DNA from: Allobosea sp. OK403
GTDB taxonomy: Bacteria > Pseudomonadota > Alphaproteobacteria > Rhizobiales > Beijerinckiaceae
DNA length: 64,000 nucleotides
Assembly (NCBI RefSeq): GCF_900113835.1
Contig: NZ_FOQV01000003.1
Span: forward strand, 124,001 to 188,000
Reading direction: 5' to 3'
The notes under the pieces are model-generated. The model saw only the letters and a program-made list of their open reading frames with translations, had not been told where the DNA came from and did no database searches. Shown here piece by piece: positions 5,535 through 63,368 of the stretch. A program made the position numbers and the translations under genes. The stretch's first letter is position 1. Each line of letters starts with the position of its first letter.

Positions 5535-5663
5535 GGCTCTTCAAGAGCGCTAACGCATCATACCGTCAACAGATGGCAGCACCGGCCGCGCATGAGGCCT
5601 GCGCAGGGCGGGACAAGAGCCGGTCCCGTGCCAGGTGCAAACCATCTTGGCTCGGAACCTCGG

Positions 5664-5813
5664 CGTCATTCCGGGGCTACGCGAAGCGTAGAGCCTGGAA
5701 CCCAGAACCGATGAAACTGGAAAGCAAGCGTCGTCATCGGCCCCGCCTATCTCGTCGTCACCTGCGGTTCTGGGTTCCGGGCTCGATCCTTCGGATCGCC
5801 CCGGAATGACGGC
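5664..5813. repeat. Large palindromic repeat, family C
   Basis: About 150 nt starting GCGTCATTCCGGGGC and ending GCCCCGGAATGACGGC, with inner arms GGAACCCAGAACCGATG and the matching GTTCTGGGTTCC. A second copy is at 26165-26314. The flanking sequence 5535-5663 holds no gene I can support. Confidence 0.8.
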
Positions 5814-5880
5814 GCGGTTCCAAATCAAGCCGTCACACTTTACAGCATCAGACCGAAGCCCGCATTCGGACCGATGCTGT

Positions 5881-11055: not shown

Positions 11056-11221
11056 GCGCGGGGAACCCTCTCCCGTAGGGAGAGGGCAGGGTGAGGGGTA
11101 GGCCGTTCGACGCTTTGGTCGCGACCTCACCGCTGCCTCGCTGTGAGGTTGGCGTCTAACTGGTCCAGGGGCCTACACCTCACCCCTGCCCCTCTCCTTA
11201 CAGGAGAGGGGTTCCCCGCGC
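11056..11221. repeat. Large palindromic repeat, family E
   Basis: Begins GCGCGGGGAACCCTCTCCC and ends with the complementary GGGTTCCCCGCGC, with sub-hairpins such as CCCTCTCCC/GGGAGAGGG. It abuts the pheT stop codon. A related half element (CCCCGCC...GGCGGGG) lies at 10965-10983, and 10955-11055 holds no gene. Other copies are at 59717-59876 and inside glyS at 60355-60525. Confidence 0.8.
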
Positions 11222-11222
11222 C

Positions 11223-13661
11223 CTACCCCCGCAGCGCCGCCCCATAGCGCTTGGCCATCTCGGCCACGATCTTGGCGCCGACCGCCTCGATCTCGGCCTC
11301 GGTCAGCGTCTTGTCGACCGGCTGCAGGGTCACAGCCAGCGCGACCGACTTCTTGCCGGCCTCCACGCCTTGCCCTTCATAGAGGTCGAAAACCGCGACA
11401 TCCGCGATCAAAGCCCGGTCGGTGTTCTGCGCGGTCTTCATCATCTCGCCGGCCGCGACCGTCTTTTCGACGATGAAAGCGAAATCGCGCGTCACCGGCT
11501 GGAAGCCCGAGAGCGCCAGCTTCGACTTAACCTTGGTCGGCTTGTACTTCGGCAGCGGCAGCGCATCGAGATGGATCTCGAAGGCGACGAGCGGGCCCTT
11601 GACGTCTAGCGCCTTCAGCACCTTGGGATGCACCTCGCCGAAGGCGCCGATGACGCCCTTAGGGCCGAACCGGAGCGTGGCCGAACGGCCGGGATGCGCC
11701 CAAGCAGGACCACCAGCAGAACTGCCGCCCGCGACGATCTGCAGGCCGCCGACCGGAACGCCAAGCCCCGTCAGCAGGCCCATCAGATCGGCCTTGGCGT
11801 CGAAGACATCGACGGGCTTGGCGGCACCGTCCCAATGGCGGCCAACGCCTTCCAGCCTCGCCGTGCCGCGGCGCAGGCCGGCGGCGGCGATGAACTGCCC
11901 CTCGGGCGTATCATCCTTGAAGACCTGCCCGACCTCGAACAGCGCGACGTCGCCGAGGCCGCGATCGGCATTGAGCTGGCCTGCGCGGATCAGCCCCGGC
12001 AGCAGCGAGGGGCGCATGTCGGAAAGATCGGCCGCGATCGGATTGGCGAGCACGAGCTGGCGCGAGCCGCCGCCGAACAAAGTCGCGGCGTCATGCGAGA
12101 TGAAGGACCATGTCACCGCCTCGACGAGGCCGCGGCTGGCGAGCAGGCGCTTGGCGGCGCGAGTGCGCTTCTGCAGCACGGTGAGGACCGGCTTCACCAC
12201 CTCGCCCTTGATCCGCGGCAACGGCGTCGAGACGACACGGTCGAGGCCGGCGATGCGCACGATCTCCTCAACGAGATCGGCCTTTCCAGCGACATCACCA
12301 CGCCAGGACGGAGCGGCGACCTTGACGCGCTCGCCGGCGCCCGAGACGTGGAAGCCGAGCGAGGTCAGCGCGAGCTTCATCTCGATCTGCGGCAGATCGA
12401 GCCCGGTCAGGCGCTTGACCTCGGACCAGGGGAAATCGATGGCAGAGGCGCTCTCGGGCAGATCGCCCTCGAAGATTATCTCGGAGGCCTCGCCGCCGCA
12501 GAGATCGAGGATCATCGCGGTGGCGAGATCGAGGCCCGGGCGGGTGAAATCAGGATCGACGCCGCGCTCGAAGCGATAGCGTGCATCGGAGTTGATGCCG
12601 AGCGCGCGGCCGGAGCGAGCAATGTTGAGCGGGTCCCAGAGCGCGCTCTCGACCAGCACGTCGGTGGTGGTCTCGTCGCAGCCGGAGGCCTCGCCGCCCA
12701 TGATGCCGGCAAGCGACTCGACGCCATGCGCATCGGCGATGACGACCTGCTCGCTGGTCAGCGTGTAGCTCTTGCCGTCGAGCGCCAGGATCGTCTCGCC
12801 GTCCCTGGCCCGGCGCACCGTGAGATCGCCCTTGACCTTGGCGGCGTCGAAGACGTGCAGCGGCCGGTTGCGGTCGAAGGTCATGAAATTGGTGATGTCG
12901 ACCAGCGCGTTGATCGGCCTGAGCCCGATGGCGCGCAGCCTCGCCTGCAGCCATTCCGGCGAAGGCTCGTTCTTGACGCCGCGCACCAGCCGCAAGGCGA
13001 AGGCCGGGCAGAGGTGCTTGTCCGCCTCGGCGAAATCGAGCGTCACCTTGACCGGGCAGGGATAGGCCCCGCGCACAGGCAGGACCTGCGGCGTCTTGAG
13101 GCCACCGAGCCCGGCGGCGGCGAGGTCACGCGCGACGCCGGCAACGCCGAGCGCATCGGCGCGGTTGGGCGTCACCGCGATCTCGATCACGGCGTCGTCG
13201 AGCCCGACATAGGTGGCATAGGGCTGGCCGACAGGCGCATCCTCCGGCAGGTCGATGATGCCGTCATGATCCTCGGAGAGCTGCAACTCGGCGGCCGAGC
13301 AGAGCATGCCATTCGACTCGACGCCGCGAATGACGCCCTTGCCGAGCGTGATGTCCTTGCCGGGGATATAGGTGCCGGGCGGGGAGAAGACGCTCTTCAT
13401 GCCGGTGCGGGCATTGGGCGCGCCGCAGACGACCTGCACAGGCTCGCCCGCGCCGGTATCGACCATGCAGACGCGCAGCCGGTCGGCGTTCGGGTGCTGC
13501 TTGGCCTCGATCACATAGGCGATGGTGAAGGCCTGGAGAGCCTTCGCCTTATCCTCGACGGCCTCGACCTCGAGGCCGACGCGGGTCAGCGTCTCGGTGA
13601 CGGTGTCGAGCGAATCCGTGGTGTCGAGATGGTCCTTCAACCAAGACAGAGTGAACTTCAT
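11223..13661 (-). CDS. pheT: Phenylalanine--tRNA ligase beta subunit
   Basis: 812 aa beta subunit of the heterotetrameric enzyme that charges tRNA-Phe. The EMAP/OB tRNA-binding domain ([24 protein letters not shown] at about 80) is followed by the B3/B4 editing region, the B5 region, the catalytic-like core and a C-terminal ferredoxin-like anticodon-binding domain. Length is normal. Its ATG overlaps the stop codon of the upstream glycosyltransferase by 4 nt (ATGA), implying translational coupling to a gene unrelated to translation. Confidence 0.97.
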
Positions 13662-26125: not shown

Positions 26126-26164
26126 CAGCAACGGGCTTTTACACCGACTTAAGGCTGAGGCTCT

Positions 26165-26314
26165 CCGTCATTCCGGGGCACGCCGAAGGCGAGAGCCCGG
26201 AACCCAGAACCGATGCGCGTCCTCGTGACGCGGAGCGGCGACCGACGCCTTCCCAAGCAGCGGCATCGGTTCTGGGTTCCGGGCTCGATCCTTCGGATCG
26301 CCCCGGAATGACGG
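26165..26314. repeat. Large palindromic repeat, family C (second copy)
   Basis: CCGTCATTCCGGGGC at one end and CCCCGGAATGACGG at the other, with the inner GGAACCCAGAACCGATG and CATCGGTTCTGGGTTCC arms. It fills the gap between the converging BKACE and CheW-fusion genes. Confidence 0.82.
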
Positions 26315-26332
26315 CGTGTTTAAACCCCGCAG

Positions 26333-59716: not shown

Positions 59717-59876
59717 GGCGCGGGGAACCCTCTCCTGTAAGGAGAGGGCAGGGTGAGGTGTCGGCCGTTGGCCGCGTTGGGCTCGCGTCAACAGCCGTGA
59801 GGTCTGCGCTTCATTGCTCCAGGGGCCGACACCTCATCCCTGCCCTTCTCCTTACAGGAGAAGGGTTCCCCGCGCC
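59717..59876. repeat. Large palindromic repeat, family E (second copy)
   Basis: GGCGCGGGGAACCCTCTCC at the left end and GGGTTCCCCGCGCC at the right, with CTCCTGTAAGGAG and CTCCTTACAGGAG sub-hairpins. It occupies most of the 452-nt gap 59462-59913; the left part of the gap holds no gene I can support. Confidence 0.85.
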
Positions 59877-59913
59877 TTTTCGCCGCGAGGCGCGGAGCTC
59901 TCTTCCTCGCGCC

Positions 59914-62418
59914 CTATCCTGCGATACGCCCGAAATCCGCCACGGCGCGGGTCGCTTCGCGGAGCTGGTTGAGCAGCTTCAGGCGGTTGATGCGCAGCGC
60001 CGGGTCGGGATCGTTGACCGTGACCTGATCGAAGAAGGCGTCGACCGCCGGGCGCAATTCGGCCAGCGCCGCCATCGCGCCCTCATAATCTTCCTTCGCG
60101 ACCGCAGCGGAGGCTGCCGGCGTCGCATTCGCCAGAGCGACGGCCAGCGCCTTCTCCTCGATCAGGCCGGCGCCCGCGATCAACTGAAGATCGGCAGCGC
60201 CAGCGAAGGCGCCCTCGCCGTCCTTCTTCTCCTCGGCCTTGAGGATGTTGGCGGCGCGCTTGTAGCCCGCGAGCAGGCTCTTGCCGTCCTGCGTTTCGAG
60301 GAAGCGGGCGAGCGCCGCGACGCGATGGGTGATGAGCAGGAGGTCGTCGGAACCGCCGCCCTGCCCCCTCTCCCCTTGCGGGAGAGGGTTGGGGTGAGGG
60401 GTCGCGCCGCCCTCTCCGGCTTGCGTCTGAAGAGCGTCGACATCGGAAGCGTCGCGCGCCCCCTCATCCGTCACGGCGCTGCGCGCCGCGCCACCTTCTC
60501 CCGCGAGGGGAGAAGGGGAACCACTGGCCCTGTTCAGCCAGTCGGGCAGCGTCGCTTCAATTCCTGGATGCGCCACACGCTCGCCGAGAACTGCATCAAC
60601 GAGATCATGCCGAGCGCCAGTGTCACGCAGCGAAACTTTGAGTCGGTCGTGAAAGAAAGCGAGGAGATCAAAGCCAAGCTTGTGCCAAACGATGGTTCTA
60701 GCGTCACCTCGCGTCGTATCGGGACGCCACCCTATCATTTTATGGCTTAGAATCGGAACTGCGGCGGAGGTGAGTGCCTCAGACAGCGGCAGCCGCGCCC
60801 CATTCTCAACCACCAGCCGGATCACCCCCAGCGCCGCTCTCCGCAGCGCATAGGGGTCCTTGCTCCCGGTCGGCTTCTCGTCGATCGCCCAGAAGCCGAC
60901 CAGCGTGTCGAGCTTGTCGGCGAGCGCAACCGCCACCGAAACCGGATCGGTCGGGACGCGGTCGGAGGGGCCGAGCGGCTTGTAATGCTCCTCGATAGCG
61001 GCGCAGACGCTGGGATGCTCGCCCTGGAGTTCCGCATATTTGCGGCCCATCAAACCCTGCAATTCCGGGAACTCGCCGACCATTTCGGTCGGCAGGTCGG
61101 CCTTGGCGAGCTTGGCTGCGCGCTCAGCGAGAGCGGGATCGGCCCCGACGATCGGCGCGAGTTCGCGCGCCAGCGCCGCGATGCGCTGGACGCGCTCGCC
61201 TTGCGTGCCGAGTTTTGCGTGGAAGACGACGCCGAGCTTGTCGAGCTTGGCCATGCGCTGATCGAGCGGCTTGGTGCGAAACTCTTTGAGACCTAGCTCC
61301 TCGGCGCTCTGAGCGAACGTCTCAAGGTCTGGCAGCGGCCCCTTGTCGGTCGCGAAGAAATAGGCGGCGTCGGAGAGGCGGGCGCGCACGACGCGCTCAT
61401 TGCCGGCGGTGATGACCTTGCCGCCATCGCTGGCGACGAGATTCGCGGTCAGCAGGAAGCGGTTGGAAAGTGGGGCAGTGGGCAGTGGGCAGTCGGCAGT
61501 CGCAACATCGCCCGACTGCCGAGTGCCGATTGCCGACTGCCTCAGCACGAAGCATTTCTGGTTCGTTCGGATGGTGGCGCGGATCGCCTCGCCCGGAATC
61601 TCCAGGAAGCGCTCCTCGAAGGAGCCCATCAGCACCACCGGCCATTCGACGAGCCCCGCGACCTCCTCCAGCAGCCCTTCATCCTCGATCAGTTCGAGAC
61701 CTTGCGCGAAGGCGAGCGTGCGGGCGTCGTTGAGGATGATCTCCTTGCGCCGGTCGACATCGAGCACGACCTTGGCCTTCTCCAGGCTCGGCACGTAATC
61801 GTCGAAACGCCTGGCCGTGATGGCGCCCGGCGCATGGAAGCGGTGGCCGTAAGTGATGTTGCCGGAGACGATGCCGTCAACCTCGAAGGGAACCACCTCA
61901 GGCTCCTCGGTCTCGGCCCCGAAGGTGCACAGAATGGAGTGCAGCGGGCGCACCCAGCGCAGGCTCGCACCGGCCGCGGAGGCAGCGCCCCAGCGCATCG
62001 ATTTTGGCCAGGGGAAGCCGCGGATCACAGCGGGCACGATCTCGGCGATGGCCGCAACCGTCTCCTGGCCCGGCTTCTCGATGATGGCGACGTAGCTGTC
62101 GCCCTTCTTGGGATCGCTGATGATCGTCGCCTGATCGAGCGAGGAAAGCCCAGCCGCCTTGAGGAAGCCCTGGATCGCGGCCTCGGGCGCGCCGACGCGC
62201 GGACCCTTGCGCTCCTCGCGGACATCGCGGCCGCGCACCGGCAGGCCAGCAACATGGAGCGCGAGCCGGCGCGGCGTGGCGAAGGCTTTTGCGCCCTCAT
62301 AGACAAGGCCGCGCTCGACCAGCGCATCGGTGACGAGCTTCTTGAGATCCTCGGCCGCCTTGCGCTGCATGCGGGCGGGGATCTCTTCGGAGAAGAGTTC
62401 GAGCAGGAGATCAGGCAT
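59914..62418 (-). CDS. glyS: Glycine--tRNA ligase beta subunit with two repeat-derived insertions
   Basis: 834 aa, longer than the usual 690-750. The family core is intact: start [37 protein letters not shown], and the late [18 protein letters not shown] and [12 protein letters not shown]. Two stretches do not belong: residues about 293-317 ([20 protein letters not shown]) and about 632-688 (with [14 protein letters not shown] and [15 protein letters not shown]). Both are encoded by palindromic repeat DNA, and both keep the frame. The ATG shares a base with the glyQ stop (TGATG). Confidence 0.95.
60355..60525. repeat. Family E palindromic element inside glyS (in frame)
   Basis: About 171 nt of family E sequence with two hairpins (CCCTCTCCC/GGGAGAGGG at 60366-60389 and CCTTCTCCC/GGGAGAAGG at 60493-60517) reads through without stop in the glyS frame, adding about 57 residues. 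Boundaries are estimated from where GlyS similarity stops. Confidence 0.8.
61468..61542. repeat. Second palindromic insert inside glyS (in frame)
   Basis: Short-unit inverted repeat (CAGTGGGCAGTGGGCAGTCG against CGACTGCCGAGTGCCGATTG) within glyS, encoding [20 protein letters not shown]. About 25 residues are added. The sequence is not related to family E. Confidence 0.7.
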
Positions 62419-63368
62419 CAGGGTCTGTACCCATTATCGATGGCGCTCCCGCCGGCGGTCTTCAGCCAGGCGGCGCCGCAGGCTTTCGCCAGTTCGCGGA
62501 CACGCAGGATGTAGCTCTGGCGCTCGGTGACCGAGATCACGCCGCGCGCATCGAGCAGATTGAAGCTGTGGCCGGCCTTGAGGCACTGGTCATAGGCCGG
62601 CTGGACCATGAGATGGCGCTCGCCGCTCTCGCCCTTTTCGAGCAGGGCCCGGCATTCGGCCTCGGCCTCGGCGAAGCGCCGAAACAAAGCGGCCGTGTCG
62701 GCATGCTCGAAATTATAGCGCGAATATTCCTGCTCGGCCTGGAGGAAGACCTCGCGATAGGTGACCTTCTCGTCCCCTTCGAGCCCGTTGAAATTGAGCT
62801 CCATGATGCTCTCGACATTCTGCAGATAGCAGGCGAGGCGCTCGAGGCCGTAGGTCAGCTCGCCCGAGACGGGCGCGCATTCGATGCCGGCGACCTGCTG
62901 GAAATAGGTGAACTGGCTCACCTCCATGCCGTCGCACCAGCATTCCCAGCCCAGCCCCCAGGCGCCGAGCGTCGGGTTCTCCCAATCATCCTCGACGAAG
63001 CGGATATCGTGCAGCTTCATGTCGATGCCGATCGCCTCGAGCGACTGCAGGTAGAGCTCCTGCAGGTTCGGCGGGTTCGGCTTCAGGATGACCTGGAACT
63101 GGTAGTAATGCTGCAGCCGGTTCGGGTTCTCGCCATAGCGGCCATCCTTGGGCCGGCGCGAGGGCTGAACATAAGCCGCGCGCCAGGGCCTCGGCCCGAG
63201 CGAGCGCAGCATCGTGCCGGGATGGGAGGTGCCGGCGCCGACCTCCATGTCATAGGGCTGGAGGATGACGCAGCCGCGCTCGGCCCAAAAGCGCTGCAGG
63301 GTCAGCAGCAGCCCCTGGAAGGAGCGGGTCGGGTTCATCGCATCGGGCAGAGTGGCAGAAACAGCCAA
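62418..63368 (-). CDS. glyQ: Glycine--tRNA ligase alpha subunit
   Basis: 316 aa catalytic subunit of the bacterial tetrameric enzyme. Motif 2 region ([20 protein letters not shown]), [33 protein letters not shown] and motif 3 region ([15 protein letters not shown]) are complete. Slightly longer than the standard 290-300 aa because of an N-terminal extension; ATG 63335 ([15 protein letters not shown]) is a shorter alternative. It is upstream of glyS with a one-base overlap. Confidence 0.97.

Follow-up and report, generated by a model that had tools for sequence, protein, structure and literature searches.

The window analysed here, a stretch of 64,000 nucleotides, carries the genes for both subunits of glycyl-tRNA synthetase (GlyRS), glyS and the adjoining glyQ (Table 1). 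In the GlyS protein, Pfam places tRNA_synt_2f (PF02092) at residues 4-611 and DALR_1 (PF05746) at residues 717-821, and the reading frame is uninterrupted over the whole gene. A profile search of the genome to which the window belongs (G000; 6.64 Mb, 24 contigs) left the model of dimeric GlyRS below its cut-off and gave a single GlyS match at 1e-30; glyS is therefore the sole GlyRS found. The GlyS proteins of two Bosea genomes are 85% and 88% identical to that of the window, by which the organism is taken for Bosea or a very close relative. Rfam, at gathering thresholds, returned nothing but a tRNA from the whole window.

Table 1. Features of the glyS region and related repeats (window positions)
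Feature	Position	Strand	Evidence
glyS, glycyl-tRNA synthetase beta subunit, 834 aa	59914..62418	-	ORF list; Pfam PF02092 and PF05746; NCBIfam TIGR00211
glyQ, glycyl-tRNA synthetase alpha subunit	62418..63368	-	Pfam PF02091
Site 1 insert, dispersed in-frame palindrome of 72 nt (residues about 293-316)	61470..61541	-	genome matches
Site 2, hypervariable non-palindromic segment, residues about 545-588	60655..60786	-	GlyS alignments
Extra non-palindromic stretch beside the site 3 element, ~20 residues (about 614-633)	60520..60579	-	alignment with L034/L035
Site 3 insert, ~155-nt palindromic repeat, residues about 634-685	60365..60519	-	L049 match; L034/L035 comparison; folding; pLDDT
Intergenic palindromic repeat downstream of glyS	59718..59886	.	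repeat search; pairwise BLAST
Second copy of the 59718 repeat	11056..11232	.	repeat search; pairwise BLAST (81% over 167 nt)

Two palindromic repeats in frame in glyS

The original prediction placed an in-frame repeat at about residues 632-688 of GlyS. That a palindromic repeat lies there in frame in this essential gene, and that it is dispersed in its own genome, is confirmed in substance; its limits are now somewhat narrower (Table 1), drawn where the L049 element matches (C12:184365-184519). The insert is preceded in GlyS by HDLVDAVL, and only a few residues stand at this place in the nearest relatives, L034 and L035 (core identity 96.0% and 95.4%), both of which lack it, so that the proposed alignment of related GlyS proteins did yield a pattern of presence and absence. 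The predicted folding energy of the insert is -105.1 kcal/mol, compared with -82.5 +/- 4.5 for 200 mononucleotide shuffles (shuffle minimum -96.6). Its longest perfect inverted repeat, 9 bp, was reached by 14 of 60 codon shuffles and is thus no longer than expected from them, because the arms are imperfect. The genome holds 31 matches to the insert at E<=0.001, the self-match included; an example of a longer match is C19:105874-106032, with 74% identity over 156 query bases. At E<=1e-12, the L049 element has copies in 34 of the 41 genomes of the genus, its own included.

A second in-frame repeat, of another family, was missed by the original prediction. This site 1 insert has 46 matches in its own genome, both strands counted. 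Among the glyS loci of the genus, a similar insert was found at site 1 only in L033, and in L041 a repeat of this type occupies site 3. The proposal that the copies at 11056 and 59717 represent the same element as the site 3 insert is rejected as stated: in pairwise BLAST, matches better than E 0.1 span only 24-38 nt of hairpin at 74-84% identity, and a hairpin module of ~30 nt is all that these copies have in common with the insert.

Recurrence at the same two sites in Hyphomicrobiales

A set of 128 distinct Hyphomicrobiales GlyS was assembled from 50 loci (from 61 related genomes) and 80 named loci, less two duplicates (L031 and L095) and one broken gene, with the window gene counted once. 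Palindromic inserts were found in 22 of these (27 inserts), leaving 106 without any. Ten inserts lie at site 1, after QKCFV, and 17 at site 3, with five genes occupied at both. A test for perfect palindromes against codon shuffles was passed by 23 of the 27 inserts, compared with 2 of 56 control windows. The four that failed include the site 3 insert of the window; three of them have counterparts among the dispersed repeats of their respective genomes, and the last, at site 1 of L066, resembles the site 3 copy of the same gene. Left uncounted were L100 and L140, which are long and non-palindromic there; L067, a glyS broken across three frames in a draft genome (G034); possible shorter remnants, such as L054 (site 3) and L143 and L157 (site 1); and L175 (G062), a partial locus outside the 128 in which an insert is present.

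On a FastTree phylogeny from which the site columns were left out, parsimony requires 16 changes for the 17 carriers at site 3 and 10 for the 10 carriers at site 1. For 25 of the 27 inserts, that site is vacant in the closest relative within the set; only L135 and L166, each nearest to the other, depart from this pattern, both at site 3. Conservation of the site 3 stretch in distant GlyS, which would have counted against the original prediction, is not seen: 111 of the 128 proteins have no palindromic insert at site 3. Among the other families of the class, 48 GlyS were examined (of 54 matching genomes) and none held a palindromic insert (Fisher p=5e-4); one of them, L361, is longer by 15 residues at site 1, with no palindrome.

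The peptide types look lineage-specific: SPLAGEGG in Bosea, ISPLVGEM...ISPTRGEIG in Mesorhizobium, Aquibium and Aureimonas, and HLPLEGGGR in Rhizobium. In the genomes searched for it, the insert type is again dispersed, with 74 genomic matches to the glyS insert in Mesorhizobium SOD10 and, for one R. tubonense insert used as query, 47 matches in R. tubonense, 13 in R. tropici and 15 in R. rhizogenes. Different repeat families are inserted within a few codons of each other, and the junctions differ by several codons between species. In L065 (the glyS of G019), near-identical elements occupy both sites 1 and 3, and the site 1 element has an extra piece within one hairpin that keeps the frame, apparently a nested insertion.

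A non-palindromic variable segment at site 2

Site 2 is no part of the palindromic phenomenon. Segments of at least 40 aa are present there in 77 of the 128 GlyS (seen in L032-L172) and fall into 64 dissimilar clusters (blastp 1e-4). These species-specific segments have a GC3 of 0.60, compared with 0.83 in the first 540 GlyS residues. Site 2 was considered as a further palindrome site and dismissed, since inverted repeats of at least 9 bp occur in 5 of the 128 and only L144 has the look of a dispersed repeat. One of 47 site 2 peptides scanned against Pfam (of 71 listed) gave a match, a marginal one (E 0.0084). The glyS of Enterovirga aerilata (L144) has repeat-like segments at all three variable sites, that at site 2 being of the type GLDPAIQ...GLDPRVKPEDDG. 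In the window gene, the 23 codons after site 2 (about 60598-60666) have a GC3 of 0.52, compared with 0.84 in the first 540 residues, which hints at local exchange.

Predicted structure of the loops

An AlphaFold model of the window GlyS, built with 62 sequences, has a mean pLDDT of 86.6 and scores at least 90 for 604 of the 834 residues. Values under 50 are confined to residues 308-312, 615-618 and 631-688, that is, to the inserts and an edge, and the 10-residue blocks from 631 to 690 score 30-44. The model puts site 1 in a loop between strands 290-294 and 317-325, and site 3 in a loop between helices 604-611 and 693-707, before the anticodon-binding region. The inserts are predicted to lie outside the GlyS fold, solved relatives of which include E. 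coli GlyRS with tRNA (7yse). In a second model, that of L093, site 2 was of low confidence.

Other genes carrying inserts

A survey of 170 element loci, some overlapping, located the element deep within glyS of several species, ileS (G004) and uvrC (G018); in Mesorhizobium it also lies in pyruvate dehydrogenase (PDH) E2, in the linker between the lipoyl and E3-binding domains. The survey over-counts glyS and gives no ranking of genes, because the queries were glyS inserts. Frames with weak matches, near-start frames and non-gene frames were set aside by eye (L002, L003, L005, L086, L091, L186, L205 (+ frame), L217-L219, L230, L231, L238, L275, L294, L306 and L317, and the second frames of L175, L191, L253 and L257). 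In the search for copies within other genes, as originally proposed, glyS is the only clear case in the window's own genome (25 loci); the ileS, uvrC and PDH E2 cases come from other genomes. The implied restriction of the insertions to glyS does not hold.

Thirty ileS and 30 uvrC loci of the same set of relatives, out of 60 genomes each, served as controls. Three ileS genes have different inserts at one site, two of which are significant palindromes; the ileS of the window's genome is slightly long at this site and non-palindromic there. The linker of uvrC contains repeat-like segments of several kinds, and 14 of 30 are significantly palindromic. Sorted by eye, the Bosea UvrC linkers (L410-L439) show the types SPHPEEAAxAAVSKDAPEGDGAS, SPPPCGEELEVGG and SPLAGEG in varied states of decay. 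Inverted repeats that are perfect over at least 13 bp were counted across 79 named loci: 12 fall in glyS (176 kb), 6 in other coding DNA (409 kb) and 38 in the remaining DNA (186 kb). The difference between glyS and other coding DNA (p=0.0015) is slightly biased towards glyS, because hits close to the ends of the other genes were left out. Of the 12 in glyS, sites 1 and 3 account for eight, site 2 for one (L144) and the rest of the gene for three. Thus, glyS is favoured but is one of several targets, with the uvrC linker hit especially, and the ileS and uvrC controls rule out glyS as a unique target.

Architecture and probable mobility of the element

A consensus of 83 Bosea copies outside glyS, the ileS and uvrC copies included, has sharp edges and takes the form CCCTTCTCCCC..GGGAGAAGG - hairpin - GGATGAGGGGG - spacer - CCCCCTCATCC - hairpin - CCTTCTCCC..GGGGAGAAGGG. 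By eye, the inner stems are CTCGGC/GCCGAG and GGCGC/GCGCC with 3-nt loops, and CGTC adjoins one of the inner hairpins on the reverse strand, the other being without it. Terminal inverted repeats, a feature of MITEs, are present both as arms of the consensus and as perfect arms of up to 27 nt in glyS inserts. The element may resemble RIME1.

Direct repeats of at least 5 nt near the junctions of 71 copies, the ileS copy included, were found at a frequency of 4%, compared with 6% in shuffles, so that no target-site duplication was detected in them. A RAYT as the mobiliser found no support around the only Y1_Tnp match in the window's genome: its surroundings hold no hairpin of at least 8 bp, and of six 7- or 8-mers of the element just one GATGAGGG occurs near that gene. 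Since neither a target-site duplication nor an element around the single Y1 transposase was seen, we infer mobility from distribution.

Age and reading phase of the inserts

The site 3 inserts of L049 (G006) and L175 are 94% identical, with a dS of 0.065, compared with 0.72 in the rest of glyS, a figure that takes in the unalignable site 2. The corresponding values for the R. rhizogenes and R. tropici insert are 0.072 and 0.69, so that divergence within these shared inserts is roughly a tenth of that in the gene. These low insert values stand for 10 and 9 nucleotide differences only and may partly reflect constraint on the palindrome; dN of the inserts is 0.061 and 0.091, respectively. Between L049 and L175, third positions are 93% identical within the insert, the compared blocks that lie outside site 2 give 57-77%, and the flanking codons differ (AGSP..GEGQP versus AGAGSP..GEGQVGA). 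Inserts shared by such pairs are read as recent, separate insertions of closely related copies, with segment exchange or a constrained palindrome as possible alternatives.

Nine in-gene peptides of Bosea are all read in a single phase, whereas open frames outside genes are spread 79/70/12 over the three phases in 159 oriented Bosea element sequences, which comprise both orientations of the same copies and exclude the glyS, ileS and uvrC copies. Were the peptides independent, agreement on one phase would have a chance of 0.435^9, or about 6e-4; the nine were hand-picked and are not all independent, and their phase was computed for five genes and assigned by peptide for the rest (by eye for L066). 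Arginine and lysine make up 6.1% of the in-gene peptides, compared with 17-21% of the open frames outside genes, and cysteine and tryptophan are absent. The bias of phase and composition fits a filter for bland, disordered peptides. The idea of an element that evolved to code was rejected on the copies outside genes, which are no more often open than shuffled sequence: of 81 such copies, 26, 31 and 1 are open in the three forward phases, compared with a fraction of 0.49 of shuffled frames.

Discussion

We propose, with a probability of roughly 85%, that selfish palindromic elements insert widely and that those in genes survive only in permissive loops and in a phase that gives a bland peptide. 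The site 3 segment would be a copy of a non-autonomous palindromic element of about 155-170 nt, made of two inverted hairpin-bearing arms, which is dispersed mainly between genes in Bosea and appears to have entered a surface loop of GlyS with the reading frame kept. Insertion would be widespread, with those events that disrupt a protein removed by selection; the survivors in essential genes would then be those in disordered loops or linkers that keep the frame and fall in a harmless phase, probably one that yields a hydrophilic Pro/Gly-rich peptide with little Arg or Lys and no Cys or Trp. As GlyS seems to offer two permissive loops, lineages could independently have acquired their own repeats there. 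The mechanism would presumably be transposition, and the insert is likely to be translated in mature GlyS and to be nearly neutral. The originally suggested coding repeat in Hyphomicrobiales, akin to the Rickettsia palindromic elements (RPEs), is supported by the presence/absence pattern, the open frame, the dispersed copies, the recurrence at loops and the ileS, uvrC and PDH E2 cases, to which the low divergence of shared inserts and the bias in phase and composition can be added; the loop location itself is as modelled.

Two other explanations start from the same recurrence. If the loops of glyS were physical hot spots, the insertion machinery would prefer their local DNA sequence or structure beyond what protein tolerance accounts for, as might be suggested by different families landing within a few codons of each other and by the repeat of site 1 type at site 3 of L041. 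Distinct families would then need a common preference, the junctions are several codons apart between species, and no target duplication was seen, which makes a hot spot unlikely. Alternatively, the inserts might be adaptive, the disordered peptide or the mRNA hairpins altering the activity, assembly or expression of GlyRS in a way that selection favours. The same two loops recur, with at least 26 changes on the tree; glyS is denser than nearby coding DNA in perfect inverted repeats of at least 13 bp (p=0.0015); and both loops are filled in five genes (p=0.0038, taking species as independent). Permissive loops account for the same pattern, however. In both shared pairs the inserts have a dN close to their dS, uvrC linkers and ileS are hit likewise and 106 of the 128 GlyS do without inserts, and we regard selection for the inserts as quite unlikely. 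A related and more speculative idea, which we hold to be very unlikely, is that sites 1 and 3 of GlyS, the UvrC linker and an IleS loop, all in essential housekeeping enzymes, are docking sites where mobile repeats keep supplying new protein segments. On this view the whole of GlyS may be under diversifying pressure, since a third site holds low-GC segments that are unlike one another in most of the compared species; repeats would be raw material for the diversification of protein surfaces and not tolerated junk.

Assembly or annotation might have produced the open frame by chance, or the insert might be bypassed or spliced and so missing from the mature protein, a reading that finds a parallel in the split glyS of L067; yet a single open GlyS frame is present in 49 of 50 and 80 of 80 glyS loci (one ended by a contig edge), inserts recur in independent assemblies and a second GlyRS was not found, so that this appears highly improbable. 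An origin in the opposite direction, with the insert ancestral in glyS and the intergenic repeats derived from it, can hardly be entertained: intergenic copies in several genomes do resemble the glyS insert, but for 25 of 27 inserts the closest relative has none at that site, the other families of the class show none in 48 GlyS, and shared inserts are far less diverged than the gene.

Protein-coding palindromic repeats have precedents in Rickettsia and in scattered intragenic REPs. In the present case, two loops of one essential enzyme have been filled repeatedly by different local repeats within one order. With empty close relatives as controls, this repeated filling makes the passage from selfish DNA to protein testable in culturable organisms, where the boundaries, ages, reading phase and fitness effect of inserts are measurable. 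It also carries a warning for annotation, in that length variants of GlyS, UvrC and IleS in these bacteria may be repeat insertions and not frameshifts. In the literature searched, which most subscription papers lay beyond, no earlier description of a repeat in glyS was found, and a search on words of the insert peptide gave nothing.

Intragenic GTAG/CGTC REPs were reported in 2013, in a paper that we take to be by Di Nocera. In the part of that paper available to us, they are arranged as head-to-head pairs and are mostly intergenic, with some in uvr genes and tRNA synthetases; the CGTC type is found mostly in alpha-Proteobacteria with no tie to transposases, and a case at the same site is given for recB in two Xanthomonas (PMC3733652). 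The elements described here are likewise palindromic, mostly intergenic and found in uvr and tRNA synthetase genes. They differ in being longer (about 120-170 nt), in having extra outer hairpins and in recurring at the same sites across a whole order, and their inner stems of 5-6 bp with 3-nt loops contrast with the 8-9 bp and 4-5 nt that the available text gives for CGTC REPs (PMC3733652). RPEs, according to the part consulted of a review of MITEs, are about 150 bp long, with 44 insertions in R. conorii, nearly half of them in genomic ORFs (PMC10969869). Compared by description, RPEs and the present elements are palindromic, about 150 bp long, dispersed, and located both between genes and in frame within unrelated genes, the in-frame hosts here being glyS, ileS, uvrC and PDH E2. 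Unlike RPEs, the present elements have Hyphomicrobiales and not Rickettsia as hosts, belong to several sequence families, recur at homologous loops across an order and are not preferentially open outside genes. In how they work, the present elements resemble both groups. Because the stems and loops differ from those of CGTC REPs and the hosts are not Rickettsia, the elements are set apart from both.

Enterobacterial RU repeats are small mobile repeats whose open frames are fused to genes (Delihas 2007, PMC2759123); they belong to Enterobacteria, and as far as the accessible sections of that paper go, recurrent homologous loops are not mentioned, the comparison again being by description. RIME and Br-REP are described, in the excerpts at hand, as dispersed intergenic palindromic repeats of rhizobia, whereas by the same kind of comparison the elements here also occur in genes (PMC2573895, PMC5082802). 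Elsewhere in the window, palindromic repeats at 5646-5829 and 26161-26321 (...GGGTTCCGGGCTCGATCCTTCGGATCGCCCCGGAATGACGG) look by eye like the Br-REP2 consensus of Bradyrhizobium as given in the portion consulted (PMC5082802). A further dispersed family, with the core GCGAAAAACCGGTTCCCACTTTTTCGCA, has five copies in the window (5905, 34991, 38757, 45228 and 49786), one of which is inverted.
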